Of a DNA stretch of 64,000 nucleotides, positions 3,064-58,686 are shown piece after piece. The notes beneath the pieces are model-generated. The model had not been told where the DNA came from. It made no database searches and worked only from the letters and a program-made list of their open reading frames with translations. Source of the DNA: Lewinellaceae bacterium. GTDB lineage: Bacteria; Bacteroidota; Bacteroidia; Chitinophagales; Saprospiraceae. The translations under genes and the position numbers were made by a program. The stretch covers positions 1-64,000 of the forward strand of contig JAHELJ010000022.1 in NCBI GenBank assembly GCA_024644235.1, given 5' to 3'. The number at the start of each line of letters is the position of its first letter. The first letter of the stretch is position 1.

Positions 3064-3137
3064 TGGTGAGGTGTTTAGGTTTGCAGATCGATCATATTTC
3101 TTCAAGATACAGAGTTCCCGATGAGTCGTGATCGGTA

Positions 3138-10779: not shown

Positions 10780-11325
10780 ATGAAAACTGAATTAATGCAT
10801 GCCATGATGATTAATGGCAGGGAGGCGGAACCTGTCGAGATTCCCAAAGCGGTTCCCGGAAATGGCGAGGTAAGAGTCAAAGTAATGGCCTCCGCAGTAA
10901 ATCCAGCCGAAGAGAAAGTGATGGGAGGAGAATTTGCCGGCCGTTTTTTACATGCGAAAAACTCCCACTGGTATTGGGCTGGGACTTTGCCGGGGTAGTT
11001 GATCTTAAAGACGATGATGTTACAGATATAGAACCGGGGACTCCGGTTTGGGGCCATTTGCCGTAGTCCATGTCTACCAAGCAAGGATCCTACTCAGAGT
11101 ACATCACCATCTCACGAAATCAGTTAGCCGTAAAACCGGATAATGTGCCTTTTCACATTTCAGCAGCTTCAGCCACAGTTGCGATGACAGTCGCTCCGGG
11201 ATCTTGGCAGATTGCGTGAGGGAGGCACAGCATTGATCATCGGTGCTGCAGGTGGTATCGGATCTGTATCCGTAGGGATCGCTAAACGTCTGGGTGCAAA
11301 AGTCACCGCAATCTGTAGCATCAAG
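10780..11325 (+). pseudogene. Decayed alcohol dehydrogenase (MDR family) paralogue
   Basis: The sequence is closely similar to the intact dehydrogenase at 14324-15289 over its first ~180 codons, including the GGEFAGRFLHAK and GTALIIGAAGGIGS blocks. It carries a frameshift after HAKNSHW, an in-frame TAG where the intact gene has a Tyr codon (LPY), and a further shift near 11200. It stops abruptly at the Rossmann-fold segment VTAICS, where it joins a reversed fragment of another gene. The C-terminal half is absent. It is a relic of a gene duplication. Confidence 0.88.
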
Positions 11326-33434: not shown

Positions 33435-34436
33435 ATGAACCGAAAACAATTTATTCTCTCGATGGGAGCTGGAATATTCACTTTATTGCCAGACCAAGCT
33501 TCTTCAACTAGATCAGCCCAACAGTCAGACCAATCCAAAGGGCAGGTGATCCCCCGAAAAGCTATAATCCCTGCTGCCCTCACCTCGATAGATAAAGACG
33601 GTAATATCGACTTTCTCGATTTCAAACGACACATTAGTTCCTTAGCAGATATTGAGGGCGTATCCGCGATTATGGTAAACGGAGGATCGGGGCATGACAA
33701 AACACTAACCCGGGAGGAACGCCGAAAGTTACTTGGCGAGGCGTTGGCAGCAGTAGATAACAAGGTGCCCATTCTGGCTGCAGTAAGGGAATCCGAATCA
33801 ATTCCGAACCTGGCACCATTGGCTAAAGATGCGCAGTTGGAAGGTGCCCAGGCCATGACGATTATGCCTCCTTCCAATGAGCAAGGCTTTTCGTGGGACT
33901 TTGCCCGCAGGCGGTTCGAAGAGGCGTGTACTGCGAGTAATTTGCCGGTGGTCATTTATCAAAGCCGGTATGAAACGGAAATATTGGTTCAGTTGGTAAG
34001 CTCATTTCCAGTGGTTGGCGTCAAAGAAGGCAGCAGAGACCCCTTGACTTTTGAGAGAAACCTTCGGGCATTGCGGGATCTGAAAAGGAATATTGCAGTC
34101 TGGTCTACCCACAGTAAGTGGCTACTTGCCGATTTGGCTATCGGTGCCGACGGGATTTTGTCCGGCATGGGAAGTGTCGCCGCTGATCTTCACGTGGCCC
34201 TTGCCGAAGCCGTCGACCGCTCAGATTTAGTGGCGGCGAGAAGAATCAGTGATCGGATCTTTCCTTTAGTGGAGGCTTTTTATCGCCCTGGTCAGGATGC
34301 CCATATACGCATGAAATATGCGCTCAAGAAGCTCGGCCGCCAAAAGCATGATTTCGTTCGGCCTCCATTGCGGCCCATTGACGCTGATGAACGTATGAAA
34401 ATAGACCAGGCTTTGGTGGAGAGTGGACTTTTATGA
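33435..34436 (+). CDS. Dihydrodipicolinate synthase (DHDPS)-family lyase, exported
   Basis: 333 residues. A leader MNRKQFILSMGAGIFTLLP resembles a weak Tat/Sec signal, unusual for this cytosolic family. The (beta/alpha)8 fold has KRHISSLADIEGVSAIMVNG, LTREERRKLLGEALAAVDNK, and the Schiff-base Lys197 in VVGVKEGSRD. The usual Tyr lies in VVIYQSRYE near residue 175. Members cleave or form 2-oxo acid aldols; the substrate is unknown. A 5'-truncated second copy lies at 37660-38385. Confidence 0.87.
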   Translation: MNRKQFILSMGAGIFTLLPDQASSTRSAQQSDQSKGQVIPRKAIIPAALTSIDKDGNIDFLDFKRHISSLADIEGVSAIMVNGGSGHDKTLTREERRKLLGEALAAVDNKVPILAAVRESESIPNLAPLAKDAQLEGAQAMTIMPPSNEQGFSWDFARRRFEEACTASNLPVVIYQSRYETEILVQLVSSFPVVGVKEGSRDPLTFERNLRALRDLKRNIAVWSTHSKWLLADLAIGADGILSGMGSVAADLHVALAEAVDRSDLVAARRISDRIFPLVEAFYRPGQDAHIRMKYALKKLGRQKHDFVRPPLRPIDADERMKIDQALVESGLL

Positions 34437-34820
34437 AGACTGCTTGTCTATTTTATTACTGTACAGTAGATAGACGAAGGCCGAGCTCAACAAGGCGATG
34501 GACAGCCCGAAGAAGGGCTCCCTAGTCCGAGGGCGTGAATGGTATTGATCCTCATTTTCGCAGATCAACTGGTGATGAATAGTACTTATTCCAAAGTACA
34601 AATGGGCTTATCATCAATTTATGGCTAACCTCATCTTAATCAATAAATGAGAGAAAGGGACATCAAGTTTATTGGTGAAGAAGTGATTTGCCTATATGCC
34701 GGGGGGAGTCACGAAAGGGATTTGCACCAAACAGATGCATCTCATGTAAGCCATTGAGTAACATCATTGAATCTTGCACGGAAGAGGTGCTTACTTGATG
34801 ATCAATTCTTATACCAAATT
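34437..34820. other. Gap without a supported gene
   Basis: It contains a weak hairpin GCCCGAAGAAGGGC near 34503 and the leader of the next gene; nothing else was recognised. Confidence 0.4.
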
Positions 34821-37659: not shown

Positions 37660-38385
37660 ATGTTTCACAGACGAACCTCATTGTCCAGCAAACGACTTCT
37701 TGTGATGGTCTGGAATATTAAGAGTGGTGGCAGCAGGGAATCAAATGCAATTCCAAACCTTGCACCATTGGCTAAAAATGCACTTATGGAAGGCGCCCAG
37801 GCCAAGACGATGATGCCTCCTGCTACTGAGCAGGGCTTCACCTGGGCCTTTGCCCGCAGGCGATTCGAGGAAGCGTGTACTGCTAGTCATTTACCGGTGG
37901 TCATTTATCAAACCCGGTACGAAACGGAAACATTGGTCCAGTTGGCAAGCTCGTTTCCGGTGGTTGGCGTCAAAGAAGGCAGCAAAGACCCTCTGACTTT
38001 TGAGAGAAACCTTCGGGCATTGCGAGATCTGAAAAAGAATATTGCGGTCTGGTCTACGCATAGTAAGTGGTTACTCGCCGATTTGGCTATCGGTGCCGAC
38101 GGGATTTTGTCCGGTATGGGCAGTGTTGCAGCTGATCTTCACGTAGCCCTTGCCAAAGCTGTCGACCGCTCAGACTTAAAGGCGGCTAGAAAAATCAGTG
38201 ATCGTATCTTTCCCTTAGTGGAGGCCTTTTATCGTCCGGGGCAGGATGCCCATATACGCATGAAATATGCGCTCAAGAAGCTGGGTCGTCAAAAGCATGA
38301 TTTTGTGCGGCCTCCTCTTCGGCCCCTTGATGCTGATGATCGTTCAAGAATCGACCAGGCCCTGATACAGAGTGGGCTTTTATAA
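37660..38385 (+). pseudogene. 5'-truncated second copy of the DHDPS-family gene
   Basis: From about 37727 the protein matches residues ~119-333 of the gene at 33435 (NAIPNLAPLAKNALMEGAQA, VVGVKEGSKD with the catalytic Lys, and to the end RIDQALIQSGLL), with mostly silent and conservative differences. The first ~25 codons from 37660 are unrelated. The barrel's first half is missing, so it cannot fold as a family enzyme, though its frame is open and it was under some constraint until recently. It looks like an unequal-recombination product or insertion remnant. Confidence 0.82.
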
Positions 38386-38833
38386 GATCGGAATGGACTG
38401 ATTAAATGAATCTTTTACAGGCTCCGCACTTGGGCAAATTATTGGAAACTAAGATAGGGATTTAAGACAAGCCTCGGAGAGCGATGTGTTATCATCATTG
38501 GCTTTCGTATATTAATTGTTGTACCGTGTCGTGCTCCCAGCGACTGGGAATGCCAGGATACCAAATTTCTTTAGGCCCAAGTCATAATCGGTTCTCATAG
38601 GGGTATTTGATCTTAAACCGCTTTTTCCGCAAGGGCAGTATTCTTCTGGCTGCACGTTCCTGGATAATTAATTTTAAAGCTTGATAATTTTGGTGCTTTT
38701 CAGGAACTTAATGTACCTTATAGTGCTATCCTCTATACTGTTTCTCAGTTTTTTCCGTCACCTTCTGTAACAATGATACAGTCATCTTCTTTAGGTTACG
38801 CTTTGCCAGTTAATCAAATAATATATCAATAGC
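38386..38833. other. 448-base gap without a supported gene
   Basis: AT-rich with no open frame that I recognise. One plus-strand frame reads PSDWECQDTKFL over ~12 codons (near 38540), possibly a gene scrap. Confidence 0.35.
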
Positions 38834-40636: not shown

Positions 40637-40838
40637 GATCCTTGAAAGAGAAGTGTCTAGCAGAACATTAAAAAGAAGCTAGATTTCAAATTCACAATCG
40701 GGAGGGTATCTGAATCGGGGGTAATCGTCTGCATGATCCAGCAACTCCAACGATTAACATCCCATATTTTTTAAGCCCCCCTCAGAGATTTGTGCATCGG
40801 TCCACTTCCTATATGTTTGCCAACTTTGTTTAAATACT

Positions 40839-41071
40839 GACATCTGTGCCACATTACATACCAATAAGGCATGTAGCTCGTCACAGCAATACCGCCATTT
40901 AATCTTCAATTTACGTGGACTGTCACTTAAAACACAAGTGACTGGCCTATGGTCACTTGACCTCGTGCTGGCATTCGAAACCACATTTGCCCCTTCAAAT
41001 GCTTCGTGCTCGACCAGCCCAGCCTTGGCCTTGACTATCAATGGTAGGCTGCCGTCAACTAAAGGCTGCCT
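40839..41071. repeat. Dispersed repeat B, copy 1
   Basis: About 233 bases similar to 51369-51594. Shared blocks include CACTTGACCTCGTGCT, TTCAAATGCTTC and GGCATGTA-CTCG. In both copies it leads directly into DUF1508 (YegP) sequence, so the repeat and the gene belong to one duplicated unit. Confidence 0.75.
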
Positions 41072-41104
41072 GAACAGGATATAGTCAAGTAGTAGCAGAT
41101 TTTA

Positions 41105-41169
41105 AATATGGAGACGGAATCAAGCCGGTGATAAAGAATGCACAGGCTGGTGTTATCAAGGATTTGAAG
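41105..41169 (+). pseudogene. YegP/DUF1508 gene fragment 1 (3' end)
   Basis: The DNA encodes a GIKPVIKN-type segment and GVIKDLK, matching the C-terminus GIKSVIKN...GVIKDLR of the copy at 51616-51945. All upstream parts of the gene are missing here. Confidence 0.7.
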
Positions 41170-41470
41170 GACCTTAAACACATAGGGACTCTCATATCAA
41201 AATGACTTAAATGGATTGGGAATTATCCGTCCAAGCATCTCTCCTATCCGTATGATGCGAATCTTTGCCTGATGACAGGGAATACTTTATCTCCACATAA
41301 CCTTTTGGATAAAGGGGATGTCGTATAATTCAATAGTTAACTAACCAACTGGAAGGCAAAATAGAATCTCTGCTGTTATGGGCTCATGATCTCACGTTAG
41401 AAGAGGTAAAGCCAGAAACGGAGTTCCCCAGACAGTAGATATTTGGCCCAATTTCTGTTGCTCTAAAGCC

Positions 41471-41705
41471 ATGGGCCTGTACGAGGTCATCGCACTACCA
41501 CGGGACGAGAAAGCAAAGATGGTTTGGAACCAGGGCGTGTACCTGTGCATACGCCCGTATAAGAACGGTTCGGTGAATCTCTATGGAATCGGAGACTTTT
41601 ACGTTGTACTACCATGAAGCCGAGAATTGTATTGAGGAAATCAGGAGTTTTCAAGCTGTGGTCTATTTGGAGCGATATCTAGATCGGATCGAGATCGAGT
41701 TTTAG
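41471..41705 (+). pseudogene. Broken small protein of unknown family (MVWNQGVYL family), copy 1
   Basis: ATG 41471 opens a frame with LPRDEKAKMVWNQGVYLCIR, NGSVNLYGIGDFYV, and stops at 41617. A second frame carries the rest, YYHEAENCIEEIRSFQ and LERYLDRIEIEF to a stop at 41705. Joined, this is a ~78-residue protein of a type widespread in Bacteroidota, with no named family or function that I know. A single shift between the halves makes it a pseudogene. A second, shorter copy lies at 52841-53080. Confidence 0.65.
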
Positions 41706-42203: not shown

Positions 42204-43277
42204 ATGCAGCATCTGAAGTATGATATGCAGAAAAACAAAGCGTTTCAACTTGCCTTAAAGAAGAACATTAAAGATTATTTCACAAATACTAATCAGCATA
42301 TTAAAGGGAATGGAATGATGACTTTTAAGGTGATCTTTTTTATTGCCTGGATGGTTATTGGCTATTGGCTATTGTTTTCAGCAACGAGTTTTATCCAAAC
42401 ATTATTGGGTTACTTGGTTTCAAGTACAGGTGCACTTTTAACTGTGATCACAGTAGGACACGATGCATCTCATAAGGCACTTTCAGAAAATAAGTATGTC
42501 AATAAATTCTTTAGTTACTCTTGGACCTTGCTGGGATTAAGTGAATATTTATGGGAGGCAAAACATCATCATTCTCATCATAGCTTTACCAATATTATCG
42601 ATTACGATCAGGATATAGCCCAAAGCAAATTAATACGAATGAATCCTCGGGAAACATACTGCTTGTTTCATAAATATCAGAAATATTATGCTCCATTACT
42701 TTATATCATATTTGGATTCTTTGCCATCACCTACCGGGAGTTTAAACTGTACTCGGTAAGGGAATACGGTAATACCTACTCCAAACATAATTTAAGACTA
42801 CTTTTCACTATTTTATTGATGAAAGTATTTTATTTTGGATTGAATCTGGCATTGCCGTTGTTGTTGATACCGATCCCTGCCTGGCAGATTGTATTGTCAT
42901 TTTTACTAACAGTTTCTGTAGCGGGTTTATATATTGTATTGGTCCTGGCAGTACCCCATATCAATCGCAAATCTGTCTTTAAAAACCCTCCTAAAAATGG
43001 TGTGATCCAAACAGACTGGTATTCCCACGCATTAGAAGTCACCGTAGATTCTTCACCCTCCAGCAGGTTTGTGAATTGGTTTACCGGAGGTCTTAACACG
43101 CACATTGTCCATCACTTGTTTCCAAATATTTGTCACATTCATTATCGGAATCTAACACCCATTGTAGCTAAAACAGCCCAAGAATATGGACTTACCTACA
43201 AGGCGGACAGTTTCATAAATCTCATCAAAGATCATTTTTTGATACTGGCGGAGTTTGGAGAAAGTCCTGTTAAATGA
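42204..43277 (+). CDS. Membrane fatty acid desaturase
   Basis: 357 residues. Three His boxes for the di-iron site: VGHDASHKAL (about residue 90), WEAKHHHSHHSF (about 115), and NTHIVHHLFPNI near 300. Four or more membrane segments lie between (VIFFIAWMVIGYWLLFSATS, LGYLVSSTGALLTVI and others). It belongs to the front-end/linoleoyl-CoA-type group but has no fused cytochrome b5. It introduces a double bond into acyl chains, likely for membrane fluidity. The gene is distinctly more AT-rich than the left half of the window, and it is flanked by DUF1508 fragments at 41105 and 43279, suggesting lateral arrival in the mosaic zone. Confidence 0.9.
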   Translation: MQHLKYDMQKNKAFQLALKKNIKDYFTNTNQHIKGNGMMTFKVIFFIAWMVIGYWLLFSATSFIQTLLGYLVSSTGALLTVITVGHDASHKALSENKYVNKFFSYSWTLLGLSEYLWEAKHHHSHHSFTNIIDYDQDIAQSKLIRMNPRETYCLFHKYQKYYAPLLYIIFGFFAITYREFKLYSVREYGNTYSKHNLRLLFTILLMKVFYFGLNLALPLLLIPIPAWQIVLSFLLTVSVAGLYIVLVLAVPHINRKSVFKNPPKNGVIQTDWYSHALEVTVDSSPSSRFVNWFTGGLNTHIVHHLFPNICHIHYRNLTPIVAKTAQEYGLTYKADSFINLIKDHFLILAEFGESPVK

Positions 43278-43278
43278 T

Positions 43279-43316
43279 CATCCTCTCTGGCGAAGCCTAT
43301 GAGCAAAAAGCAAGAA
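43279..43316 (+). pseudogene. YegP/DUF1508 gene fragment 2 (middle)
   Basis: Thirty-eight bases encoding IILSGEAYEQKA, with 33 identities to the corresponding stretch at 51684-51721. It begins directly after the desaturase stop codon. The rest of 43317-43607 holds nothing recognisable. Confidence 0.7.
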
Positions 43317-46861: not shown

Positions 46862-48226
46862 ATGAACCGATCAATGTACCAAAATACTGTTATACTGATT
46901 CTCCTGAGCTTTTCCATAAGTCTTGGCCAAGGGGAGTGGTCAACTTCTGCGCTCAGTGAGGCAAAAGTCCAGATGGGGGCAACATCGCTGGACTCAAAAG
47001 CCTACTTCGGTGGTGGGCTTGGCAACAATTTTTATTCGAATTTGGTGGAGATATACGATGCTTCAACCGGTGAATGGGCGATGGATCAACTATCTGTTGC
47101 AAGGGCATTCCCGGTTGGTGTGAGTGCTGGCAACAAGGTTTTCTTCGCTGGTGGAATCAACTGGCAAACCTTGGAACATTTCAGTACAGTGGACATTTAC
47201 GATACACTTACTCAAGAATGGACAATCGGACATCTTTCCACTGAAAGTTTCTATAATCAGGCAGTTGCTTATGAAAATCAAGTAATGTTTGCAGGAGGAT
47301 TTCAGTTACTATCATTAAATCCACCCAGTTATCATTTTTCTGATGTTGTTGATATCTACGACCTCAGCTCTAGTAGTTGGAGTACCTCCAACCTTTCAGA
47401 AGCACGTAGCGGGATTGCATCGTCTGTCGTCGGTGACGTTGCTCTTTTTGCCGGAGGATTGACTACCAATGCGCAGGTGAGTGACCGGGTAGATTTATAT
47501 AACTTCAGTACTGAGGAGTGGAGTACTACCTCACTCAGTGAACCAAGAGTTTTTTGCACGGCAGTAACAGTAGGAAACCGGGTATTAATTGCAGGAGGAA
47601 CAAATCTCAATAATCAGCAAACTGCTGTAGTAGATATCTACGATCATGATTCAGGTACCTGGTCGCAAGACAGTCTTTCGGCTCCTCGAAGTTTTACTGC
47701 AGGCGCTGTAAGTATTTGTGGATTGGGTATCATTCCAGCAGGTGGCAGCATGGATCTGAATCAATTTGTATTTACTTCCGCTAGTAGTGTTATTGATATC
47801 TATGATCCCGAAACTGAAACATGGACAGTTGAGACACTTGATAGATCCACTGTTAACCATTCTGCAGTAGGTGTAGAAAACCAAATGCTGATCGCCGGAG
47901 GCATTTCATTTGAGTCAATCCTATCGCAAGATAGGGTGGATATCCTCGAATGTGATTTTGTCAGTGCAGCAGATGACAAATCCACATTATCTGAAATAGA
48001 ACTCTTTCCTAATCCCGTGATAGATGAGATCAATATCTATATCGGGAAGGATACGAAGGTATCAGAAGTCCAAGTGCAAATTTTTGATCTTGGCGGTAGA
48101 CTAATAAAGTCAATAAGAGGTTTTGGAGAATTGAAACTCAGCACTTATCACTTGTCAGGTGGTATCTACTTGGCAAATATTTTCAATGACAAATCATCCG
48201 TGACTGTAAAAATTTTGAAGCTTTAA
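46862..48226 (+). CDS. Kelch-repeat protein with T9SS type A C-terminal sorting domain
   Basis: 454 residues. The signal (TVILILLSFSISLGQG) is followed by seven similar Kelch repeats, each of the form AFAGGxxxNxxxxVDIYDxxTxxW (for example EIYDASTGEW, VDIYDTLTQEWT, VDIYDLSSSSW, VDLYNFSTEEW). The C-terminal ~75 residues form a Por secretion tail: LFPNPVIDEINIYIG, VQIFDLGGRLIKSI, and GGIYLANIF, ending VKILKL. That tail directs export by the type IX system and surface anchoring. This gene is the clearest phylum marker in the window. Confidence 0.9.
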   Translation: MNRSMYQNTVILILLSFSISLGQGEWSTSALSEAKVQMGATSLDSKAYFGGGLGNNFYSNLVEIYDASTGEWAMDQLSVARAFPVGVSAGNKVFFAGGINWQTLEHFSTVDIYDTLTQEWTIGHLSTESFYNQAVAYENQVMFAGGFQLLSLNPPSYHFSDVVDIYDLSSSSWSTSNLSEARSGIASSVVGDVALFAGGLTTNAQVSDRVDLYNFSTEEWSTTSLSEPRVFCTAVTVGNRVLIAGGTNLNNQQTAVVDIYDHDSGTWSQDSLSAPRSFTAGAVSICGLGIIPAGGSMDLNQFVFTSASSVIDIYDPETETWTVETLDRSTVNHSAVGVENQMLIAGGISFESILSQDRVDILECDFVSAADDKSTLSEIELFPNPVIDEINIYIGKDTKVSEVQVQIFDLGGRLIKSIRGFGELKLSTYHLSGGIYLANIFNDKSSVTVKILKL

Positions 48227-48452
48227 TTTTAGTAGTTATCAAGGCTGCTCTTTTAATAAGAAGTCTTCAAATCTAAATAATGATAGCACCCCTCGTGTTG
48301 CAGTAGTCATACGGAAAGTCATTAAGAAATTAATGGAGAATCACAAATCTGATTTGTGACTGGATCAACAGGTGCAAATACTGCAACGTCATTGCTGGTA
48401 CAGCTGAAGCCCTTATTAGCTATACCGCGTGTTGCGCAAGTAGCTTTATTGA

Positions 48453-48878
48453 TCAATACTCTAAAACTCCAGTATGCATAGTCATTTTCCATTCGTCTCC
48501 AACTTTTGAATAGACCTTGCATACTCTTCCTTTCCAATGACTTCTATCATTATTTTTATTTGTCCATAATGTATCAATATCCACAACAACAAAGGCTCCA
48601 TCTTTGTCCTCTGATACAACAATTTTTTTTATTTCCCGAATGTTATGTTCCAATTCATAATTATCAAATAAATCCTGCCATACTTTACTCCACTTGTCTT
48701 TATTAAATTTTCCTAACATTAATTCCCAATCCATTGGATCATGGGAAGTAGGTGTTCTTGGCCAAGGCCAAACCATATCAGGATGAAAAATTGAAATCAA
48801 GAGGTTAACATCTTGAGTATCCCACGCTTTTGTTTCTCTATCCACAATTTCTCTTATTTCGATTTCCTCTTTTGTCAT
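48453..48878 (-). CDS. NTF2-like (SnoaL/DUF4440) protein, cytosolic
   Basis: 141 residues, no signal. The start MTKEEIEIREIVDRETKAWD, followed by VNLLISIFHPDMVWPW and DTLWTNKNNDRSHWKGRVC, ending GDEWKMTMHTGVLEY, follows the SnoaL-like pattern of a helical lid and a curved beta sheet. Ligand unknown. The gene is AT-rich and lies in the mosaic zone. The 226 bases downstream are empty. Confidence 0.8.
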   Translation of the reverse strand: MTKEEIEIREIVDRETKAWDTQDVNLLISIFHPDMVWPWPRTPTSHDPMDWELMLGKFNKDKWSKVWQDLFDNYELEHNIREIKKIVVSEDKDGAFVVVDIDTLWTNKNNDRSHWKGRVCKVYSKVGDEWKMTMHTGVLEY

Positions 48879-49036
48879 GGCTTACATCCTTTCAGTAGAT
48901 TCAGAAAATTGTGGAGAATAGTTTAGTGTCAACACTGTTTTGTTGGCGCGGTCTTTTGCTTTAGGTTAATTCTAACATTTAGGACGTGTTTCATTTGCAA
49001 AAGACACGACAATATACCATAGCGTTTGACACAGTG

Positions 49037-49618
49037 TTATGGAGTTTTAACTCTAATTTTTTTTTTATAATTCATCACAAAATCTCTCAAATCGATACAT
49101 TCAGTAAAATCAGAATTGACTTTTACGAGGGTTAATCTATCGATAGTGCACCAAAGATCAAATCCCATATCTTCAAACTCTTTCCTAGCTTGCTTAAACT
49201 TCCTGCCATCCAAAGTCAACTTAGCTGTTGGATTGTTGAAATCGTATGTTTCCATACTGAATAAGCCCAACCCTATATGCGGATAAAATGGAAGATCGTC
49301 GCGAAGATAAGAACTTAGAATTCCCTCATACAGTTTATCGTGGAGTTCAACTACCATTTCTTTTCCTTCTTTTGCTCCTAGATACAACCAATGATCCCAA
49401 GTTTTCTCAAGGGTGCAAAAATGTACTTTGAATGGCTTCCAAGTTTTTAATACCTTTTCAATATGCTTCTCTAAATTTTGCCTCCCTACACTCTCAGGAA
49501 CTGGATAGATAAATGTTACATGTTCTGGAAGCAGTTCTGAATAGGGATCATAAATGTGACGAAAGGATTGAAAGCCCTCATGCGAAATATGTGGATAGTG
49601 TACTAAACCAAAATACAT
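49037..49618 (-). CDS. 2H phosphoesterase (2'-5' RNA ligase-like) protein
   Basis: 193 residues. Both catalytic HxT/S-like motifs are seen: HVTFIYPVPE near residue 34 and HIGLGLFSME near residue 114. Between them lies WKPFKVHFCTLEKTWDHWLYLG. The C-terminus RLTLVKVNSDFTECIDL fits the fold's last strands. In the second motif the expected Thr/Ser is replaced by Gly, so activity is uncertain. Members act on 2'-5' linkages or cyclic phosphates of RNA or nucleotides. Confidence 0.8.
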   Translation of the reverse strand: MYFGLVHYPHISHEGFQSFRHIYDPYSELLPEHVTFIYPVPESVGRQNLEKHIEKVLKTWKPFKVHFCTLEKTWDHWLYLGAKEGKEMVVELHDKLYEGILSSYLRDDLPFYPHIGLGLFSMETYDFNNPTAKLTLDGRKFKQARKEFEDMGFDLWCTIDRLTLVKVNSDFTECIDLRDFVMNYKKKIRVKTP

Positions 49619-49695
49619 TTATAATACAGATTTATTCTCCATCACTGTCTGGCTAAACTGCGTTTCAATGCAGTTTAGGTTTTGTTAGAATCAGT

Positions 49696-51264
49696 TTATT
49701 TCTCAACTCGTTTCAAGTCTAAATCTTGAAAATCAAAACTGAAATCAATATTGGGCGAGATGCCCTTCATCTTAATGCCTATTCCTTTACCTTGCTCATC
49801 TAAATTAAATGTCGCAAAGGCATCGGCATTCATATCAGTATACTCCCATTTAACCGCGAAAGTAGTAGCCTGATAATAGAACATTTGCCCATTCAATTTT
49901 GGCGACCGTTTAGAAGTAAACCATAGTTTCCCATCATTCAAGGCTATCTCTACCTCACCAAACCAATTGTCTTTATAAGTTCCAACGTAGTTGTCTATAT
50001 CTATGATTGATGACTTGCTTTGCTCAACCATATTCCAAACTCTGGTTGTCACTGAGTCGGACTCATTGCTTGTGGATTTTGCTCTATCCGCCGATTCCTT
50101 GATCCAGTCTTTTTCTTCAATCTCTAAAAATGAATCTAGTATGATTTCAGAAATGGAATAAAATGCATATCCTCCAGGCAATGAATTTGTTAAAACCACA
50201 ATTCCGAGACTAAGTTCAGGAACTAAAACTGCACTTGATAGCATGCCGGGCAATCCACCAGTATGGCTAATTATAATTTTTCCTTGTTTATCTGTGATGA
50301 CCCATCCGAGACCGTAGGCTGCAAAATGTTGCCTCGTTCTTGGATTTGGCTTTGTTGTGAATCCTAAATGGGTATGTGGTCTCCACATTTGGCTTTGCTG
50401 CTCTTCAGAAAACAATTCGCGAGATAACTCCTTACCGTATTTTCCATTGTTTAGCTGCATGATCAGCCAGTTACTTAAATCATCAACACTGGAATAAATA
50501 CCTCCGGCAGCTGCAACCAGATCACTATCGAAAGTAGTCAGTTGTTTAATTCCTTCTCCTTCTGAATCATGGGGAAGAGCAAGGTTAGAATTTTTACCTA
50601 ACATCGAACTTGTCGGTACAGAAGTAGTCATTCCTAGCGGATCCAATATCCTTGTCTGAACGAAATCGACCCAGCTCATACCACTAATCCGAGCCACTAC
50701 TTCTCCAGCGACTATATAAAGAAGATTATCGTAATCATATTTAGTTCGGAACGCAGAGACAGGTTTCTGAAATTGAAAACTATGAAGGACATCTATGATC
50801 GTGAAATCGGCCCCATCTGGAAAAAACATTAAATCACCCGCTCCAAGTCCAAGACCACTTCTATGTGTCAGAAGATCTACGATGGTAAAATTGGCAGTAA
50901 CATAATCATTATACATTTTAAACTCAGGGGTATGATCAACTACCTTATCTTCCCATTTAAGTTTTCCCTCATCAACCAGTATTGAAAGAGCGGCAGCTGT
51001 AAACGCCTTTGTATTTGATGCAATAGCAAACAATGTGTGCTCATCTACCTCTTGCTTACTGTCAATGGATTTAATTCCATATCCTTTTGAATGAATTTTT
51101 ATTCCGTCTTTTACAACAGCAACTGCTATTCCTACAGAAGGGGTTGACTCTAACGCTCTCTTAACAAGTGAGTCAATTTTAGATGAATTAATTCCTTGAG
51201 CAAGGATTGAATTAGTTAGTGGGAAAATGATTGCTAAAGACAGAAATAGAATTAATTTTTTCAT
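49696..51264 (-). CDS. Serine hydrolase of the beta-lactamase/class C family with C-terminal DUF3471-like domain
   Basis: About 522 residues from ATG 51264, where a Sec signal (LILFLSLAIIFPLTNSILAQ) begins; longer starts add unrelated sequence. Catalytic Ser83-x-x-Lys86 lies in IASNTKAF, the Tyr in YDYDNLLYIVAG, and the third motif is ISHTGGLPG. The C-terminal ~100 residues (IDNYVGTYKDNWFGEVEIAL ...) are like DUF3471. Such enzymes hydrolyse esters or D-amino peptides; a true beta-lactamase role is unlikely. The gene is AT-rich. The 5' side abuts repeat B copy 2. Confidence 0.9.
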   Translation of the reverse strand: MKKLILFLSLAIIFPLTNSILAQGINSSKIDSLVKRALESTPSVGIAVAVVKDGIKIHSKGYGIKSIDSKQEVDEHTLFAIASNTKAFTAAALSILVDEGKLKWEDKVVDHTPEFKMYNDYVTANFTIVDLLTHRSGLGLGAGDLMFFPDGADFTIIDVLHSFQFQKPVSAFRTKYDYDNLLYIVAGEVVARISGMSWVDFVQTRILDPLGMTTSVPTSSMLGKNSNLALPHDSEGEGIKQLTTFDSDLVAAAGGIYSSVDDLSNWLIMQLNNGKYGKELSRELFSEEQQSQMWRPHTHLGFTTKPNPRTRQHFAAYGLGWVITDKQGKIIISHTGGLPGMLSSAVLVPELSLGIVVLTNSLPGGYAFYSISEIILDSFLEIEEKDWIKESADRAKSTSNESDSVTTRVWNMVEQSKSSIIDIDNYVGTYKDNWFGEVEIALNDGKLWFTSKRSPKLNGQMFYYQATTFAVKWEYTDMNADAFATFNLDEQGKGIGIKMKGISPNIDFSFDFQDLDLKRVEK

Positions 51265-51368
51265 AATTGATTTATTGATTCTGACTATAAAGGATTGTAT
51301 CAGTAATCGATACAAAGCGCTGACCTTAAGATAGTGATCTAGAGACATGAATCCCTTGTTTATACATG

Positions 51369-51594
51369 GACATTTGTCCCGCATTAATACCAATACGGCA
51401 TGTAACTCGCCACAATAGTCTCGATTATAAATCCCTTTCAAACTACTGTATTATAGCTAAGGACACAAGTCACGGACGGCGATCACTTGACCTCGTGCTA
51501 GTATATGACCCAGCATTGGCCCGTTCAAATGCTTCATGCTCAGTCAATCTTTGGCATTGACGTTCAGCAGCAGGCTACCATCAGCTAGAGGCTG
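51369..51594. repeat. Dispersed repeat B, copy 2
   Basis: Similar to 40839-41071 over about 226 bases and followed, as there, by DUF1508 sequence. This copy keeps most of the gene, while copy 1 has lost the middle. Confidence 0.75.
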
Positions 51595-51615
51595 AACAAC
51601 TAATGCCATTGTATC

Positions 51616-51945
51616 ATGCCATTTGAAATTTTTAAAGGCAGAAGTGGTAATTCTACATTCGACTGAAAACCACCAATGGACAGATCATTCTTTCTGGCGA
51701 AGCCTACGAACAAAAAGCCAGTGCTAAAGAAGGGTATCCAGTCAATCATCAAGAACACTAAGGATGGTGATAAAAGATTTGACCGGCGCAAATCCAAGAA
51801 GGGGGACCCGTATTTCGTGCTCCTTGCAAAGAATGGTGAACCATTAGGCCGCAGTGAGATGTACAAGAGGAACGCCAATATGGAGAAAGGAATCAAGTCG
51901 GTGATCAAGAATACCCAGAAAGGTGTTATCAAGGATTTGAGGTGA
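51616..51945 (+). pseudogene. YegP/DUF1508 protein gene with two frameshifts
   Basis: Reading across two one-base shifts (near 51649 and 51730) gives a typical two-domain YegP protein of about 110 residues: MPFEIFKGRSG, FYIRLKTTNGQIILSGEAYE, QKASAKEG, IQSIIKNTKDGD, then PYFVLLAKNGEPLGRSEMY and MEKGIKSVIKNT. The second domain is fully open from 51676 onward. The family is small, cytosolic, of unknown function. Two other pieces of the same gene lie at 41105 and 43279. Confidence 0.85.
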
Positions 51946-52014
51946 TTTTACGTTAGGTTATTCGAGCCATCCAATAGAAACGCGCTTTGCATGATGGGTT
52001 GTTTAGAACCTTAA

Positions 52015-52083
52015 ATGCAAGGAACTTACTAGTGGTAATGCAGGGAACTTACTAGTGAAAATGCAGGGAACTTACTGGGTTCA
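52015..52083. repeat. Three tandem 23-bp repeats, array 1
   Basis: Units at 52015-52037, 52038-52060 and 52061-52083, each starting ATGCAGGGAACTTACTAG or a close variant, exactly in 23-base phase. A second array of three lies at 53040-53108 in the same orientation. Confidence 0.88.
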
Positions 52084-52102
52084 GTTAAATTTTGTCTTCT
52101 CG

Positions 52103-52780
52103 TCAATCAATGGTGTGCTTTATACCAACAATAGGAATCTGATCTCGTACCTCCATCCAATCGCCTTGGCTTCCCATAATTACCAAGTTGTTCATTTTCA
52201 AATTTTTACCCAGTTGGCGTCCTATTATATACCCAAGGGCGAATCCTGCGGGTGGTAATATCAAGTATGAGAAGCTGACAGACCTAGTCTCACATTCCTC
52301 CACTCGAAAAATCGAGTTTTGTGAACGGCCATCTGGATCACAGATGATTTGCCCACCTTTCCTAACCTCTTTTTCTAATCCTCCCATAGCATCAACAGCT
52401 ATCGCAGCTATAGTGCCTATACCTGCACCAATTAATCCACTAGTGACTCCAGATTTATTCATTACTCTTGAATCTACGATTCCCTCTTCTCTACTTTTCC
52501 AATGAATTAAATCTATTTTGTCAATAGAAATCTTGGTTCGCTCTATGGCTGGGAATTTCTTCGAATTAATGTAATCGATATAGTTATCTGCCGTTTCAAG
52601 GATATACCCTTTTCCCACCACTCTCTTACCTCCTTTTGCTTTTAGCTTTTCCAGTATAACAAGAGTTTCATGCTGTACAAGATCGTTGATGTACCTGGTT
52701 TGAGCAGAACCATATCCAAACCCCAATAGCAGAGGGAACCAGATCAATACATAAACGATATGTGAAACCCTAATTGCCAT
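52103..52780 (-). CDS. Hypothetical secreted protein with a glycine-rich membrane segment
   Basis: About 225 residues from ATG 52780, which opens on a signal (IVYVLIWFPLLLGFGYGSAQ). The mature part begins TRYINDLVQHETLVILEKLK and has VVGKGYILETADNYIDYINS, then a Gly/Ala-rich hydrophobic segment SGLIGAGIGTIAAIAVDAMGG and a second one near the C-terminus (PAGFALGYIIGRQLG). This resembles the small Bacteroidota proteins at 22702 and 36376 in layout. It lies between the two 23-bp repeat arrays. No family recognised. Confidence 0.65.
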   Translation of the reverse strand: MAIRVSHIVYVLIWFPLLLGFGYGSAQTRYINDLVQHETLVILEKLKAKGGKRVVGKGYILETADNYIDYINSKKFPAIERTKISIDKIDLIHWKSREEGIVDSRVMNKSGVTSGLIGAGIGTIAAIAVDAMGGLEKEVRKGGQIICDPDGRSQNSIFRVEECETRSVSFSYLILPPAGFALGYIIGRQLGKNLKMNNLVIMGSQGDWMEVRDQIPIVGIKHTID

Positions 52781-52840
52781 AACAGTATATCTTCCTCGGA
52801 AAAGACTTCCCAACCCTACGAGATCCCGTATGGATTGTCA

Positions 52841-53080
52841 ATGAGGCGGATCACGAGACAAAATGACTTTGCAATCTCAAGGGGAAAATTTGTTGATTTA
52901 GCCCTAGCTCATGGATCTGTACATTTCATTGTACTACCACAAGACGAGAAAGCCGCGATGGTCTGGAACCAGGGCGTATACCTGTGCATGCGTCCTTATA
53001 GGAACGGTTATCTATACGGAATCGACGACTTTGCATCTAGGGACACGGAACTTACTGGGAAAATGCAGGGAACTTACTAG
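52841..53080 (+). pseudogene. MVWNQGVYL family protein, copy 2 (partial)
   Basis: An open frame whose second half reads IVLPQDEKAAMVWNQGVYLC and RNGYLYGIDDFA, like the copy at 41471-41705. It has no C-terminal half (the YYHE...EEIRSF part) and instead runs into the 23-bp repeats. The first ~23 codons come from the 59-bp direct repeat. Confidence 0.6.
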
Positions 53081-53108
53081 GAAACGTGCAGGGAACTTAT
53101 TGGGGGAA
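53040..53108. repeat. Three tandem 23-bp repeats, array 2
   Basis: Units at about 53040-53062, 53063-53085 and 53086-53108 with core GGGAACTTACTAGG; the first and last are slightly diverged. Same orientation and phase length as array 1 at 52015-52083. Confidence 0.85.
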
Positions 53109-53238
53109 TGGTCTAATCAGAAGTAAACTCCCATAGAGTACAAAGTTCTTCTATGACTTGTCAATGAGGCAAATCACGAGGCCGAATGATTTTGCAGTCA
53201 CAATGTGAGAATTTGACCACGATTTTCTGGTGTTGTGA

Positions 53239-53436
53239 TCGTCAGGACTTCACAATACTGCTACCAATGAAAAATTACCGATTGCTTTGTCTGGTGCCAT
53301 TGCTGTGATTGGTAGGACGTTTGCACTCTTGGTCTCGGCAGAAAGTCCTAAGAAAGCAAAAGAAATGCTCATGGAAGGGGCATCAATTAATCAGTCTATC
53401 AATATTGGAACCCAACTCACTTTTGCTCTCGATTGA
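53239..53436 (+). pseudogene. C-terminal gene remnant of unknown family
   Basis: A frame without a good start encodes TNEKLPIALSGAIAVIGRTF, LVSAESPKKAKEMLMEGA and SINIGTQLTFALD to a TGA. It reads like a genuine protein end. No family recognised. The remaining 53437-53609 is empty. Confidence 0.35.
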
Positions 53437-53609
53437 CTTTTAGGTGGATCTCAGGATAGAATCAGTTTCAATTATTTCCTTCAAAAAGAAGCGCATAGCA
53501 TATAAAAAAGAAACCTCAACTCAAGAGTTTCTAGTCGAGCAGAATCTCTGGTGAGCACAGACCAGTGTCGTATTTCCGCGAAAAGGGAGTGGATCAGAAA
53601 TGTCATCCT

Positions 53610-54620
53610 TCAAATATTCATCACTTGTTCGTAGATTCTTTTGGCCATCTCCTCCAAAGTCACCTCGGTAACCTGCGGATTAAAATGTGCGTATTCTGCA
53701 ACCCAGTCCATCCGCTTATAGTGACCCATTAGAACACCTCGGAGTTCAATGCTTTCATCTTTATTCATAAACACAGACTGTGACAATTGTACATCGAGCT
53801 GCTCAAGAAAAGGACCATACCAGCTCCTGGCTTTCGTGGTCAGCTCTCTTCTTTTGCGATCATCCAATCGATCCATTTTCAGGAGATACTGGAATAGGTC
53901 CGAGTCTCCATATATCTGGTTAAAAAACATTATAGTGTGCTCATCCAGGGCCATGCCCTCGTAGTATTTGAATTGCAGGCCATAAAGGATACGAAGAACA
54001 GTCAGGATTTGGGGTATATTCAATATTCCATAATCGTGGAGCAATAGAACTGGTAACTGATCTTCGTGTTCGTGATATCTTAAAACCCTTGCCACATTTG
54101 TCAATGTTCGATCCGTTGCTTCATATAACTCGCTTGTATTGACAATTTCTTCGAGTACTTTCCTCACGTCCTCCCGGAAATGACTCAGGTCCAGCAGGAT
54201 TTGATCACCCATGTGCCCATCAACTCGCACAAATCTTGGGTCGGTTGTCTTTACATGTGGACTCTTATAATACGTTTCCAAAACAAAGGAATCCCGGTAT
54301 CCACTTGTCCTAAATAGATGAAAGGCCGGAAAGCCATTTTCCGCCTTTGCCTCCAGAATCAGGTTGTGATCGATTAATCTTAATGCTTTCCTGAGATTCA
54401 TTGGTGTGTTCAAAGCCACTTTGGACCGATAAGTTCTATCGACCATCATAAACTCTTTGGTCAGAGCCTCTTTAAGCATTGCCATGTTTTCCCGAAAGAA
54501 ATGACCCTTGACCTTCATTGTATATACCCAGTGATCGACCTCCCGCAGCTGGTTGATAAGAGGTAGCAAGATCTCACCGAGAGGTTTCCTTCTCTTATGC
54601 GTAGTTGGGAAAATATGCAT
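53610..54620 (-). CDS. Unknown protein D of the AAA+/vWA locus
   Basis: 336 residues, no signal or membrane segment, mostly helical. The N-terminus is basic (MHIFPTTHKRRKPLGEILLP), the middle has FPAFHLFRTSGYRDSFVLET, then VRVDGHMGDQILLDLSHFRE, and the C-terminal half is helical (HDYGILNIPQILTVLRILYG, EEMAKRIYEQVMNI). I recognise no family or catalytic motif. It starts three bases after the vWA gene ends and is the last gene of the operon, so it probably acts with the AAA+/vWA machinery, as substrate adaptor or effector; that is inference. Confidence 0.75.
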   Translation of the reverse strand: MHIFPTTHKRRKPLGEILLPLINQLREVDHWVYTMKVKGHFFRENMAMLKEALTKEFMMVDRTYRSKVALNTPMNLRKALRLIDHNLILEAKAENGFPAFHLFRTSGYRDSFVLETYYKSPHVKTTDPRFVRVDGHMGDQILLDLSHFREDVRKVLEEIVNTSELYEATDRTLTNVARVLRYHEHEDQLPVLLLHDYGILNIPQILTVLRILYGLQFKYYEGMALDEHTIMFFNQIYGDSDLFQYLLKMDRLDDRKRRELTTKARSWYGPFLEQLDVQLSQSVFMNKDESIELRGVLMGHYKRMDWVAEYAHFNPQVTEVTLEEMAKRIYEQVMNI

Positions 54621-54623
54621 GAG

Positions 54624-56549
54624 CTACATCCGTTGAAAATCTTTGATCAAATGAGTGACATATTCTCCCAGCCGTTCAGCCGAAGTATTAATATTATCCT
54701 CGGTAGCCACCCTTGGAAAATGAATCACCTCGTCTACATATTCCTGAAGGCCTGTGGTACCGGATCCTCTGAAGGAAACCAATGTAAAATGAGCGTTGGC
54801 AAACCATTGTTCCCGGCACTGCCGATACACGTCAATCACTTCATCTTGTGCAGAACAAGGGGCATGGGTAGACTTTCCAAAGCCTTCATCAGTGAGATGC
54901 AGGACAAATAATGGTAAATGGTGATGACGCAAAGAAGCATGGTGCAAGATACTGGCCAAACAGAGACTGTCACTCTGTTCACTCATGATTTTACTCCCTG
55001 CGATCCTGGCTATGGTCTCATCGTGATTAGAATTATGCATGTTTCTGTTGGAAAGGTAGTTGACTTTAATATCACTGCCCACATCACCATAGGCAGCGGC
55101 GATAAATTCACAATTTAGTCCCCGTACTACTTCCGTTAGAGAAATCGAAAAGATTTTGGTAATCTCAAGTGCTGATCTCATACTCCCCGAGGCGTCAAGA
55201 ATTAAGATCACTAAGACTCGCGAAACAGTCATCCTTAGCATGATCTTCCTTTTGGAATAGATGATATTAGAGACCGGATATAAGATCATCCGGTTCTTAT
55301 GGAATCCGGAACCACTCTGGGATAGCTTTCTTGTCCCTGAAGGGGTCTGCCTTTTGAATACTAGTTTTTTCATCTTGTCCACTAAAGGTGTGCTACGTCC
55401 TATCAATCGCTCAATTTCGACGAGATCCTGACATATAGGAGTCAGTGATTCATTCACAAATCCCGAATAAATAGTCCCACCAATTGTCATCTTAATCTCC
55501 TGACCTGGGATGACTTCTCCTTCAAACTGAGTGGCCTTGAAAGGATCTACCTTACCCTTTAGAGTGTTTGTCAGATCGTCATACGTTTCAGTTGCCTCCA
55601 TTACGGCCTTGAGCATTTCTTCGACCTGATTCTGATCTAAAATCTGAGTCGCATTTTCATGGGCTTTTTCCTGATTTATACCGATCATAGGCAGATCAAC
55701 TTCCACATCTGAGAAGCTTAAATTTGGATTCAAAGAGTGCTGGACGAGCACTTCTCCTTTACTGGGTGCCAAGCCGCTTGATTCATGTCCATTCCCAGGT
55801 GTGCCCTTACCATCAGCATTTAGATCGGGAATGTCAAAGAATAGGTCTGCTTCGGAACTATCCAGCCATTCGCACATCAGGTTTCTGGTAATATGAATGT
55901 TTTGATCCAGGTCCCCTTCATCTCGATAGCTCTTGATCTTCTGTTTGATTTGTACAGCCAGATCATAAAGGTGTATTTTTTGTCGTGAGTTGAGGACACG
56001 ATCAAAAGGTAAAAGCTCTGAGTAAAAGAATGCTGTCTTGATAACATCCGCTGCTGTTACCTGCTCAAGGGGGCTCACCAAAGAGGCTGAAACGTAACGG
56101 TAATTGATCACATCATTCCTGAGATCATCGGAAGTACACAAATGTTCAGATAGAATCCATTTATCCAGTGGGTCCTCAATCAGTTTCATAAGTGCCACCT
56201 TGTCTGGATCTGTTACCCTCTGCGTGATATCACTCAAGTTTAAGCGTTGCTTGCGGTGTTCGTCGGCTACACAAAAAATCGAAAGACCCAGGTTTCCAGC
56301 GAGTCGGAACGTGTGAGGAATATCCCTTAAATAGGCAAAAACTACCTGAGGCTTCACTCGCAGTTCAGTAAAAGAGGGGTCGACAAAATGAGCAGATGTC
56401 TCCATCTTCACCGTACACAGTTGATAAAAGAGGCGATTGGCATGATCTCTATAGTAAAAGGGAAGCCCTGGTCTGAACGCATCCATAGCAGAAAGTCCTT
56501 TCCAATCCTGCTTTAAAGTCTCTGCATATATGTCGGGATAATTCATCAT
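54624..56549 (-). CDS. vWA-domain protein C of the AAA+/vWA locus
   Basis: 641 residues, cytosolic. Residues ~1-430 are an unassigned helical region. The C-terminal ~200 residues form a von Willebrand A domain with an intact MIDAS: LVILILDASGSMRSALE (DxSxS), a Ser/Thr-containing loop SEQSDSLCLASIL, and the third Asp in FVLHLTDEGFG. This layout (large N-terminal region, C-terminal vWA) is that of CobT/NorD/CbbO-like partners of MoxR-type AAA+ proteins, which remodel a client in a Mg2+-dependent way. Its start overlaps the stop of the AAA+ gene by four bases (ATGA), so the two are coupled. Confidence 0.87.
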   Translation of the reverse strand: MMNYPDIYAETLKQDWKGLSAMDAFRPGLPFYYRDHANRLFYQLCTVKMETSAHFVDPSFTELRVKPQVVFAYLRDIPHTFRLAGNLGLSIFCVADEHRKQRLNLSDITQRVTDPDKVALMKLIEDPLDKWILSEHLCTSDDLRNDVINYRYVSASLVSPLEQVTAADVIKTAFFYSELLPFDRVLNSRQKIHLYDLAVQIKQKIKSYRDEGDLDQNIHITRNLMCEWLDSSEADLFFDIPDLNADGKGTPGNGHESSGLAPSKGEVLVQHSLNPNLSFSDVEVDLPMIGINQEKAHENATQILDQNQVEEMLKAVMEATETYDDLTNTLKGKVDPFKATQFEGEVIPGQEIKMTIGGTIYSGFVNESLTPICQDLVEIERLIGRSTPLVDKMKKLVFKRQTPSGTRKLSQSGSGFHKNRMILYPVSNIIYSKRKIMLRMTVSRVLVILILDASGSMRSALEITKIFSISLTEVVRGLNCEFIAAAYGDVGSDIKVNYLSNRNMHNSNHDETIARIAGSKIMSEQSDSLCLASILHHASLRHHHLPLFVLHLTDEGFGKSTHAPCSAQDEVIDVYRQCREQWFANAHFTLVSFRGSGTTGLQEYVDEVIHFPRVATEDNINTSAERLGEYVTHLIKDFQRM

Positions 56550-57529
56550 GATAGGATTGAATGATTCTGTAGATTGGAGAGTTGCTCAAGGGCTATGGCC
56601 CTTGCTTTTACCTGATCATTTGGTGTACCGGATCCATAAAAGACGATTCGGTAGAGATCTTCTATCTCAAAGATTCCCTTTTCTAATTTGCGTATAAAAC
56701 TCAAATAGCTTCTCATGTTAGGGTAGGGAATGCTGGCAAAATCTCCTTTCTTGATTTTGGTCTTTCGAATTTCATGGCAGAAGGCGAGCATGGAATACAG
56801 GATGGCTTCACGGTCTTCGATCTCATGTGATACTATACACATTAGTATCTCCAATTCGTCCTTGAAAGGCAGGTAGTCCCAATTGAGATTCGCTGTCATT
56901 CGAGCAGATAGGGCGCCGTCGAATTGGGCTAGTCCAACGTAGTCTCCATGTTCACTTGCGCCAAAGTTGCTATCACATACGATCCTTAGGCTACTCCCGT
57001 CCCCGATGTACTTTCCTTGGTCATCAAAAATTCGATTCTGGATCATACCCAATATTCCATGCTGAATCTCAGGCAGACATCTCAATAGTTCACTGAGCCA
57101 CCATATGGCGATGTTGTCCGGATCTTCCTGAAGCCGAAGCGCTTGCTTAAGTGTGGCGAGCGCCGGCTGCATTTCATCGTACGTGTTACCATTGCGAATG
57201 CTCCTACGCCTAAAGAGCTCATCGATACCCTGGACGGCCGATAGGTTTACGTGCAGTAGGTGTGCATTTTTTGGAGCCGAATTAATTCCCAGAATTCTCA
57301 GTACCAGGCGCCAGTTATTGACTATGACATGCAGACCCTCTGTCTTCCCTGTACCGGTATTCCCGTTGATGAATACTCTTGATCCAGGCTCCAGGATGGA
57401 ATGAACAAATTCCTTCAGGCGAACAACCGGCATGTAGTAAAATGGAAGACTTGAACCTTTGTTGGGAAGTGCCACCAGATCGGTGCCTGACGCTTTCCGT
57501 AATTGAGATCGTTTTGCTTCGATGATCAT
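56546..57529 (-). CDS. MoxR/dynein-type AAA+ ATPase B of the locus
   Basis: 327 residues. Walker A is GNTGTGKT at residues 56-63. The Walker B region reads IAIWWLSELLRCLPEIQHGI: the position of the usual Asp of hhhhDE is Ser, while the Glu is kept. The family-type segment that follows, LAQFDGALSARMTANLNWDY, corresponds to the sensor/arginine-finger area of the AAA_5 group. It should be an ATP-driven ring that acts on the vWA partner, but ATP hydrolysis may be slow or absent with this Walker B. Its gene starts 11 bases after the upstream gene and overlaps the vWA gene by four bases. Confidence 0.87.
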   Translation of the reverse strand: MIIEAKRSQLRKASGTDLVALPNKGSSLPFYYMPVVRLKEFVHSILEPGSRVFINGNTGTGKTEGLHVIVNNWRLVLRILGINSAPKNAHLLHVNLSAVQGIDELFRRRSIRNGNTYDEMQPALATLKQALRLQEDPDNIAIWWLSELLRCLPEIQHGILGMIQNRIFDDQGKYIGDGSSLRIVCDSNFGASEHGDYVGLAQFDGALSARMTANLNWDYLPFKDELEILMCIVSHEIEDREAILYSMLAFCHEIRKTKIKKGDFASIPYPNMRSYLSFIRKLEKGIFEIEDLYRIVFYGSGTPNDQVKARAIALEQLSNLQNHSILS

Positions 57530-57540
57530 ATGATGAGTTT

Positions 57541-58686
57541 TTACTGCGTGGTTAACTTAAATAGGAGTTCAAGATTGCTTTTTGCATCAACGCACATCCC
57601 TGTCGAGAGTTTTTCGAGGTTGTATCGGACCAGGGATGTAATGGTTTCCTCACCGGAGTTTCCAAACCTATCGAGGGCAGAGATCATGCATTGGATCAAT
57701 TCGGTTCGCCTTGAAGGCGATATTCCTCCAATCTGCCTTTGCTGGAATTCGACTGCAATCTGCAGTAACCATCTTGTTGGCAGCTCAACAACTCTGTCAA
57801 AATATTTAAGACCCAGGTGTTTTCCAGGAGGAGGTAAGTCCGGACTACGCAACATGATGAATGGTACTCCGGTCACCATAGATAGCTGACCAAAAGCTTT
57901 TAATTGATGATCCTCCTTAGAATAGGGTTCGGGGAGGGCAACGAGGCTTAATTCTGACGTATCGAGCAGCGCATCAGCATCCGAAGGGAACTTTAGTAAA
58001 CCTATACTCTTTTTGAAAACCAGACATTCTGCGGCCAGAGCCCTCAATATGAATCTATGGGTGAGGATACCCCCATGCGACAGAACAACAGGCTGGGCAG
58101 AGCACAAAAAATCGATGATTTCCTTGAGTTGCTCTTTCATAGGGCTCGATTGATAATAGTCGAGCAGGTCTGATTCAAGTGGTCTGACATATTGATACGC
58201 CGCAGTCCCTTGTAAGACCATTTCCTTCTCATACACCCGGACACTCGGTATCTCCTGTTGCAGTTTTGAGGCTACGTGCTGGCACGTCTCCAGATCTCTT
58301 TTCAGATCGTTCAGCAAAGTTCGTTCTTCAGAAAGTTCAAAGACCTTGCGAACCCATAATTCATCATGCGAAGAATCAGTATCTTGTTGATAAGGGATTT
58401 CAAAAGGACCCAATTCGATTAATATGGAAGAGAAGATTTCTAAAGGAAACTTTACCCATTTGGCAGTGCGTAGCAAGAGCAAATCCAAGATCAGCACATC
58501 ACCACTCATTTGTCCTTTTATGGTGAGAATACCAATTCGCGACAAGTAGTCTCTTGATTTGGATTGCAGCTTCTTATCCAGCACGGAGCAAGATAATCCC
58601 AGTTTCTTCTCAACCAGATGTGCCACCAATTGCATATCTATGTAACTCATCTTTATTGCATTGATTACCCTAAAAATAGGTGACAT
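57541..58686 (-). CDS. Unknown protein A of the locus, AAA-like without a P-loop
   Basis: 381 residues (an ATG at 58650 is an alternative start). The N-terminal ~170 residues are helical and unassigned (coiled-coil-like ERTLLNDLKRDLETCQHVAS). Residues ~195-330 look like an AAA+ core that has lost its nucleotide site: PVVLSHGGILTHRFILRALA stands where a P-loop would be, followed by ELSLVALPEPY and GVPFIMLRSPDLPPP, then YFDRVVELPTRWL, which is laid out like the Walker B, sensor and post-sensor strands of sigma-54-activator AAA domains. This is inference from pattern. It is the first gene of the four-gene operon. Confidence 0.72.
   Translation of the reverse strand: MSPIFRVINAIKMSYIDMQLVAHLVEKKLGLSCSVLDKKLQSKSRDYLSRIGILTIKGQMSGDVLILDLLLLRTAKWVKFPLEIFSSILIELGPFEIPYQQDTDSSHDELWVRKVFELSEERTLLNDLKRDLETCQHVASKLQQEIPSVRVYEKEMVLQGTAAYQYVRPLESDLLDYYQSSPMKEQLKEIIDFLCSAQPVVLSHGGILTHRFILRALAAECLVFKKSIGLLKFPSDADALLDTSELSLVALPEPYSKEDHQLKAFGQLSMVTGVPFIMLRSPDLPPPGKHLGLKYFDRVVELPTRWLLQIAVEFQQRQIGGISPSRRTELIQCMISALDRFGNSGEETITSLVRYNLEKLSTGMCVDAKSNLELLFKLTTQ

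Follow-up and report, generated by a model that had tools for sequence, protein, structure and literature searches.

Two direct three-box repeat arrays in a Saprospiraceae genome: possible local copies of one decayed multi-site module

Short direct repeats, several to a site, are a known feature of the ends of some transposable elements. According to two reports, each IS21 end has two or more direct repeats, to which IstA binds (PMC10122671, PMC11208146), and the first of these also attributes several transposase-binding sites to each end of Tn7- and Mu-type elements (PMC10122671). A different kind of repeat is BrickBuilt of Porphyromonas gingivalis, which is described as a 23-nt tandem repeat without spacers within a MITE (PMC4596501). 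The same report gives 19 occurrences in strain ATCC 33277, of 1 to 22.8 copies and most with a leader and/or tail; the authors' default BLAST matched P. gingivalis only, and copies are also found in P. gulae (PMC4596501). Here we compare these systems with a pair of repeat arrays, A and B, from a Lewinellaceae bacterium. The window is the whole stretch of 64,000 nucleotides that was analysed (contig JAHELJ010000022.1, positions 1 to 64,000), and the features that concern us are the following.

52013..52081, plus strand: array A, three units of about 23 bases, with boxes GGAACTTACTAG, GGAACTTACTAG and GGAACTTACTGG
52103..52813, minus strand: 236-aa ORF, start signal-peptide-like as judged by eye, no Pfam family over cut-off
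52829..52892, plus strand: 64-base direct repeat, copy 1, 80% identical to 53152-53215
52910..53032, plus strand: small ORF, 5' part, 3'-truncated; homology stops just before array B
53039..53106, plus strand: array B, three units in steps of 22 and 23, with boxes GGAACTTACTGG, GGAACTTACTAG and GGAACTTATTGG
53152..53215, plus strand: 64-base direct repeat, copy 2, 47 bases past the matched end of array B

The repeats themselves are genuine. The six units of about 23 bases, three in each array, share the core GGAACTTAC, and the sixth box, in array B, is altered within it and reads GGAACTTAT. Cores lie at 52020-52032, 52043-52055 and 52066-52078 in array A (steps of 23 and 23) and at 53046-53058, 53068-53080 and 53091-53103 in array B (steps of 22 and 23). 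A preliminary description of this DNA had reported two arrays of three repeats in the same orientation and with a strict 23-base period. The arrays and their orientation are borne out, with all six cores on the plus strand: allowing up to two mismatches, the 13-base core matches six times in the window against 0.90 expected, and none of 100 shuffles reached six. The strict period holds at three of the four steps and fails at one step of array B, which is 22 bases. Tandem Repeats Finder scored array A at 107 (2.8 copies) and array B at 88 (2.6 copies). They are the top-scoring arrays of period 15-30 in 539,858 bases of the same genome (the window plus 40 stretches, score threshold 40), where four other arrays of period 20-24 scored 52-72 and have other units. 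In the printed period range of 15-45 the sole higher scorer was a 42-base array of 4.8 copies at 19345-19547 of the window, inside a 515-aa ORF, 42 being a multiple of three. The two arrays lie 1,026 bases apart in direct orientation, and 52018-52079 aligns with 53044-53104 at 84% identity over 62 bases. This match runs from box one as far as the TGGG at box three, and stops at the array edges on either side. Three other kinds of repeat were considered and rejected: a coding repeat, 23 not being a multiple of three; CRISPR, since there are no spacers; and an RNA element, as the sequences fold no better than shuffles (z of -0.65 to 0.48 in four strands). No RNA family reached its gathering score in 48000-56000.

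Further copies were sought in the same genome, a 97.28%-complete draft of 5,632,336 bases in 249 contigs. Matches to the 12-base core pattern numbered five forward and none in reverse, all of them at boxes of the arrays, whose sixth box escaped through a single change; the pattern read backwards, as control, occurred three times. Uniqueness in the genome is not certain, because a draft in 249 contigs may miss multi-copy elements. BLAST of 51940-53260 against the genome (E of at most 0.01) returned itself and one paralogous gene fragment, 41470-41599. A profile made from all six units, one with its first letter altered, scored those units at 27.1-34.8 over the 539,858 bases, and the next match was an isolated one of 16.5 (stretch L170). 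The reversed-sequence control reached 15.6 at best and gave 28 matches above 9, where the real sequence gave 26 with the six units counted; on the minus strand of 50000-56000 the best score was 4.5. Among relatives, a two-unit pattern with up to three mismatches was absent from 397 other genomes of the family (398 including the present one), and the core pair, sought in 100 genomes of relatives with this one included, was found in this genome alone. BLAST of array A against 396 genomes of the order (E of at most 0.1) matched 33 genomes, this one included, with a best foreign E of 5.3e-4 and 34 foreign places listed; of 19 foreign loci printed at 160 bases each (L066-L084; L075 is off-centre relative to its match), 18 contained the match but, by eye, no array. 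The preliminary description had named confinement of the 23-mer to this place as the outcome contrary to its cassette, iteron and terminal-repeat readings, and such confinement is what we find in this genome and in the relatives searched.

Looser or wider searches met tandem repeats of other kinds. A triple-box pattern matched 88 times in 8 of 395 genomes of the class, the present one included, against 8 matches in 5 genomes for the pattern read backwards. Among the matches listed, six genomes had foreign places of period 21, and in G690 the repeats were 7-mer-based. Arrays of 21-base repeats that contain GGAACTT, with differing units, occur in six class genomes (G730, G596, G732, G524, G798 and G575); those of G730 lie at L129 1021-1125 and L130 3469-3825. 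No transposase was seen by eye in the listed ORFs of two G730 loci and one G596 locus matched by the triple-box pattern. Across genome_contigs (described as covering 84,980 species genomes) the exact two-core pattern was found in two stretches, from a spirochaete (L011) and from Glaciecola (L012), both of them tandem arrays of other units. The spirochaete stretch is rich in tandem repeats and carries, at 2656-3386, an array in which a 23-base unit is repeated 32 times, some copies having GGGAACTTACT cores. Viral contigs gave no match to the two-core pattern and nine isolated matches to a single 16-mer; the plasmid search gave one 32-base match and the phage search none. The core string was not found in the papers searched.

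No relative of the 236-aa ORF (224 aa used) was found in 149 other genomes of the family or in plasmids. In one other genome two relatives of the small ORF were found, in ORFs of 105 aa and 86 aa (the latter a weak match, E 0.005), and the window itself holds a paralogue at 41471-41614, 11 kb away and without arrays by profile scan. The homology of the small ORF ends at 53032 and array B starts at 53039-53044, that is 7-12 bases on. Judging by sequence comparison, the fragment is ordinary neighbouring DNA and not cassette content, because the paralogue of the small gene exists elsewhere without arrays. The arrays had also been said to bracket a gene: the 236-aa ORF and a broken ORF do lie between them, but this describes position only, the truncated ORF having its paralogue at 41471-41614. 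On a larger scale, 51356-53032 is collinear with 40826-41599 in three pieces (71%, 86% and 78% identity), about 10-11 kb apart, and the latter region holds no array by profile scan. Both arrays stand on the 3' sides of ORFs, array A after the 236-aa ORF and a DUF1508 ORF, and array B at the break in the small gene, a place also 0.5 kb past the 3' end of the following ORF. The DUF1508 ORF (51676-51945) has a 5' part that looks frame-shifted by eye, and its region is matched by two short DNA stretches nearby, 41105-41167 and 43276-43314. Beyond the arrays, 53610-58686 holds four consecutive minus-strand ORFs, two of which match AAA and vWA weakly, short of the Pfam cut-offs, and the others have nothing over cut-off; they could include a MoxR/vWA-like pair. 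Two further local duplications were seen in the window, 33786-34439 with 37735-38387 (87%) and 10794-11325 with 14332-14872 (74%).

Along the DNA the order is array, 64-base block, array, 64-base block. The blocks are 323 bases apart, which differs from the distance of 1,026 between arrays by about 700, and the interval from array to block is 749 bases with the 236-aa gene and 47 without it. When the block is included, a gapped alignment runs on for some 80 bases (score 77, equalled by none of 300 shuffles). A longer tandem duplication is unsupported past the block, the part after it alone (52893-53036 against 53216-53420) being not significant, with 179 of 300 shuffles scoring as well. Ahead of the block, the score of 52700-52828 against 53105-53151 was reached by 146 of 300 shuffles. 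Comparison of 52084-52200 with 53105-53151 gave one 23-base match (0 of 300 shuffles, or 2 of 300 when the first stretch is extended from 52084 to 52828), which falls within the 236-aa ORF and whose offsets are unequal.

We tentatively favour, at somewhat less than even confidence, the explanation that the arrays are local copies of a single ancestral module of three boxes, and that this module was most plausibly one end, with several repeats, of a transposable element since lost. On this view a stretch of non-coding DNA undergoing decay would once have held a single three-site array, which was then duplicated nearby in the same orientation. After copying, the two arrays would have diverged to about 80-84% identity, while indels removed or inserted DNA between them. 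As to the identity of the array before decay, we infer that it was probably a set of protein-binding sites. Local copying is favoured over a mobile element because the core pattern is restricted to two spots in the 5.63-Mb draft genome: the copies are 1 kb apart, direct and found nowhere else, and a mobile element would be expected to leave scattered copies and inverted pairs. It is also preferred because the 64-base block has a second copy that follows the arrays in order and orientation and whose divergence (80%) is like theirs (84%), so that one duplication event may have produced both pairs. Other old local duplications in the window, such as 40826-41599 with 51356-53032, would fit this history, as would the cutting of the small gene (52910-53032) at the edge of array B, where a duplication joint might lie. 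Against it, the spacing of 1,026 bases for the arrays and 323 for the blocks requires an extra indel of about 700 bases, about the size of the 236-aa ORF; no significant similarity continues past the block; and the array-to-block spacers have no clear match. Moreover, exactly three boxes in each copy also suits two insertions of a defined end.

Such insertions are the core of a serious rival, which we consider less probable: A and B would be two separate orphan ends, of three repeats and from the transposase-gene side, left by an extinct element of the IS21, Tn7 or Mu kind, B having landed inside the small gene. We compared the arrays with IS21 elements of the same bacterial family. The IstB model (E of at most 1e-40) matched 19 of 150 family genomes, the present one not among them, and 20 stretches around 30 listed places were taken, each oriented by its longest ORF. 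Arrays of period 21-24 lie beside istA/istB in 17 of the 20, which favours orphan ends. Tandem Repeats Finder gave 2.0-5.0 copies for upstream arrays (11 stretches, at least 2.7 copies in ten of them) and 1.9-2.5 for downstream arrays (11 stretches); it gave no array in L045, L056 and L060, though L045 shows visible repeats. In the family's elements (L045-L064) the istA side thus typically has some three repeats or more, and the istB side about two. For 12 of 21 IS21 stretches the highest-scoring inverted ends reached at least 20, a raw score taken without a shuffle control. The likeness lies in the architecture: direct repeats of 21-24 bases, mostly about three upstream of istA, resemble three units in steps of 22-23 bases here. 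At least two direct repeats of about 20-24 bases are present in each array, a feature shared with IS21 ends but not specific to them. Common edges without common flanks, and the break in a gene that adjoins array B, also suit two landed ends. As to a terminal TG...CA and a target-site duplication, which mark IS21 elements, inspection by eye of the one presumed end per array, amid strong decay, showed a TG near each left edge, TG being a common dinucleotide. In contrast, the arrays here are direct and not inverted, no element body accompanies them, and no inverted copy was found in the genome. A first impression by eye of an IS21-like unit was unsupported: against 12 chosen IS21 unit consensuses the unit scored 58 on either strand, the shuffle mean being 60.8, and 651 of 1000 shuffles did as well, whereas 11 of those 12 units match the remaining IS21 units at a level that no more than 1 of 200 shuffles reached (L049, 9 of 200). 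Transposase genes argue the same way. PF22483 (Mu-transpos_C_2), which we take to be the IstA C-terminal domain, has no match in this genome; the IstB family, PF01695, has two partial matches over cut-off on contig C217 (model positions 95-195 and 72-119 of 238), in our judgement other AAA+ proteins; and six-frame translations of 51940-53610 hold no Pfam family. Tn7 and Mu ends can be set beside the arrays by the architecture of several sites per end; for a gene of the TnsB/TniA type, this genome was covered by an rve scan. That scan gave three matches on other contigs, two of them over cut-off and IS3-like by eye. Elsewhere in the same genome, an rve transposase ORF is preceded, some 0.5 kb upstream, by a 37-base tandem array of 4.6 copies (L176 469-633). 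The earlier proposal of multiple terminal repeats of a decayed element may still hold, as the architecture is that of the family's IS21 ends, but the unit sequence does not match theirs, and body, transposase and inverted partner were not found.

An improbable alternative is a small minisatellite, or one borne by a non-autonomous element as the 23-nt BrickBuilt of P. gingivalis is. The GGAACTT-containing arrays of period 21 in six other class genomes and the 32-copy spirochaete array, with its 23-base unit and similar core, lend it some weight, as does BrickBuilt itself, a spacerless unit of 23 bases almost confined to one species. BrickBuilt nevertheless has another unit and 19 dispersed sites of variable copy number against two arrays of three copies here. 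Many dispersed copies with a shared leader or tail and terminal inverted repeats were not found; similarity ends at the edges of two arrays, and in 540 kb of this genome the other arrays of period 20-24 number just four, all lower in score and different in unit. Working protein-binding sites, whether operators, iterons or another three-site regulatory module, are less probable still. The three-box design is retained in both copies and the spacing of 23 bases is near two helical turns, but the arrays stand at the 3' sides of ORFs and not ahead of a gene, and the units have diverged and are retained by no relative searched. The iterons of the preliminary description are disfavoured, since six frames of 51940-53610 contain no Pfam domain at E of at most 0.5 and hence no Rep; none of ten ORFs scanned between 48453 and 59944 has a Rep domain either. 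As recombination sites bounding a mobile gene cassette, also suggested earlier, the arrays make a very unlikely case. They are direct and flank a complete ORF without found relatives, and the two array-to-block intervals differ by about one gene length. However, the DNA between them also holds the small-gene fragment, present 11 kb away without arrays, so that the arrays do not delimit a mobile unit; their orientation opposes the 236-aa gene but agrees with the small gene; similarity stops at their edges; and neither a recombinase in six frames of 51940-53610 nor a further array in the genome was found. Sites of the attC type were rejected for want of a common orientation relative to genes. 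We give hardly any credence to a last variant, in which the three-box array would be the landing site of an undescribed gene-cassette system and a cassette of about 700 bases would have inserted beside one array; array and block would then be seen in two states, one with a complete ORFan gene in between (749 bases) and one lacking it (47 bases).

Returning to local duplication of a decayed module, nothing found suggests a present-day role for the array pair, which is most likely fossil DNA. The locus is also a caution, as short direct arrays around a gene mimic a mobile cassette, and here the paralogous region indicates that part of the bracketed DNA is ordinary. A relative with such an array beside a transposase, if found, would enlarge the set of multi-site elements known from the group by one.
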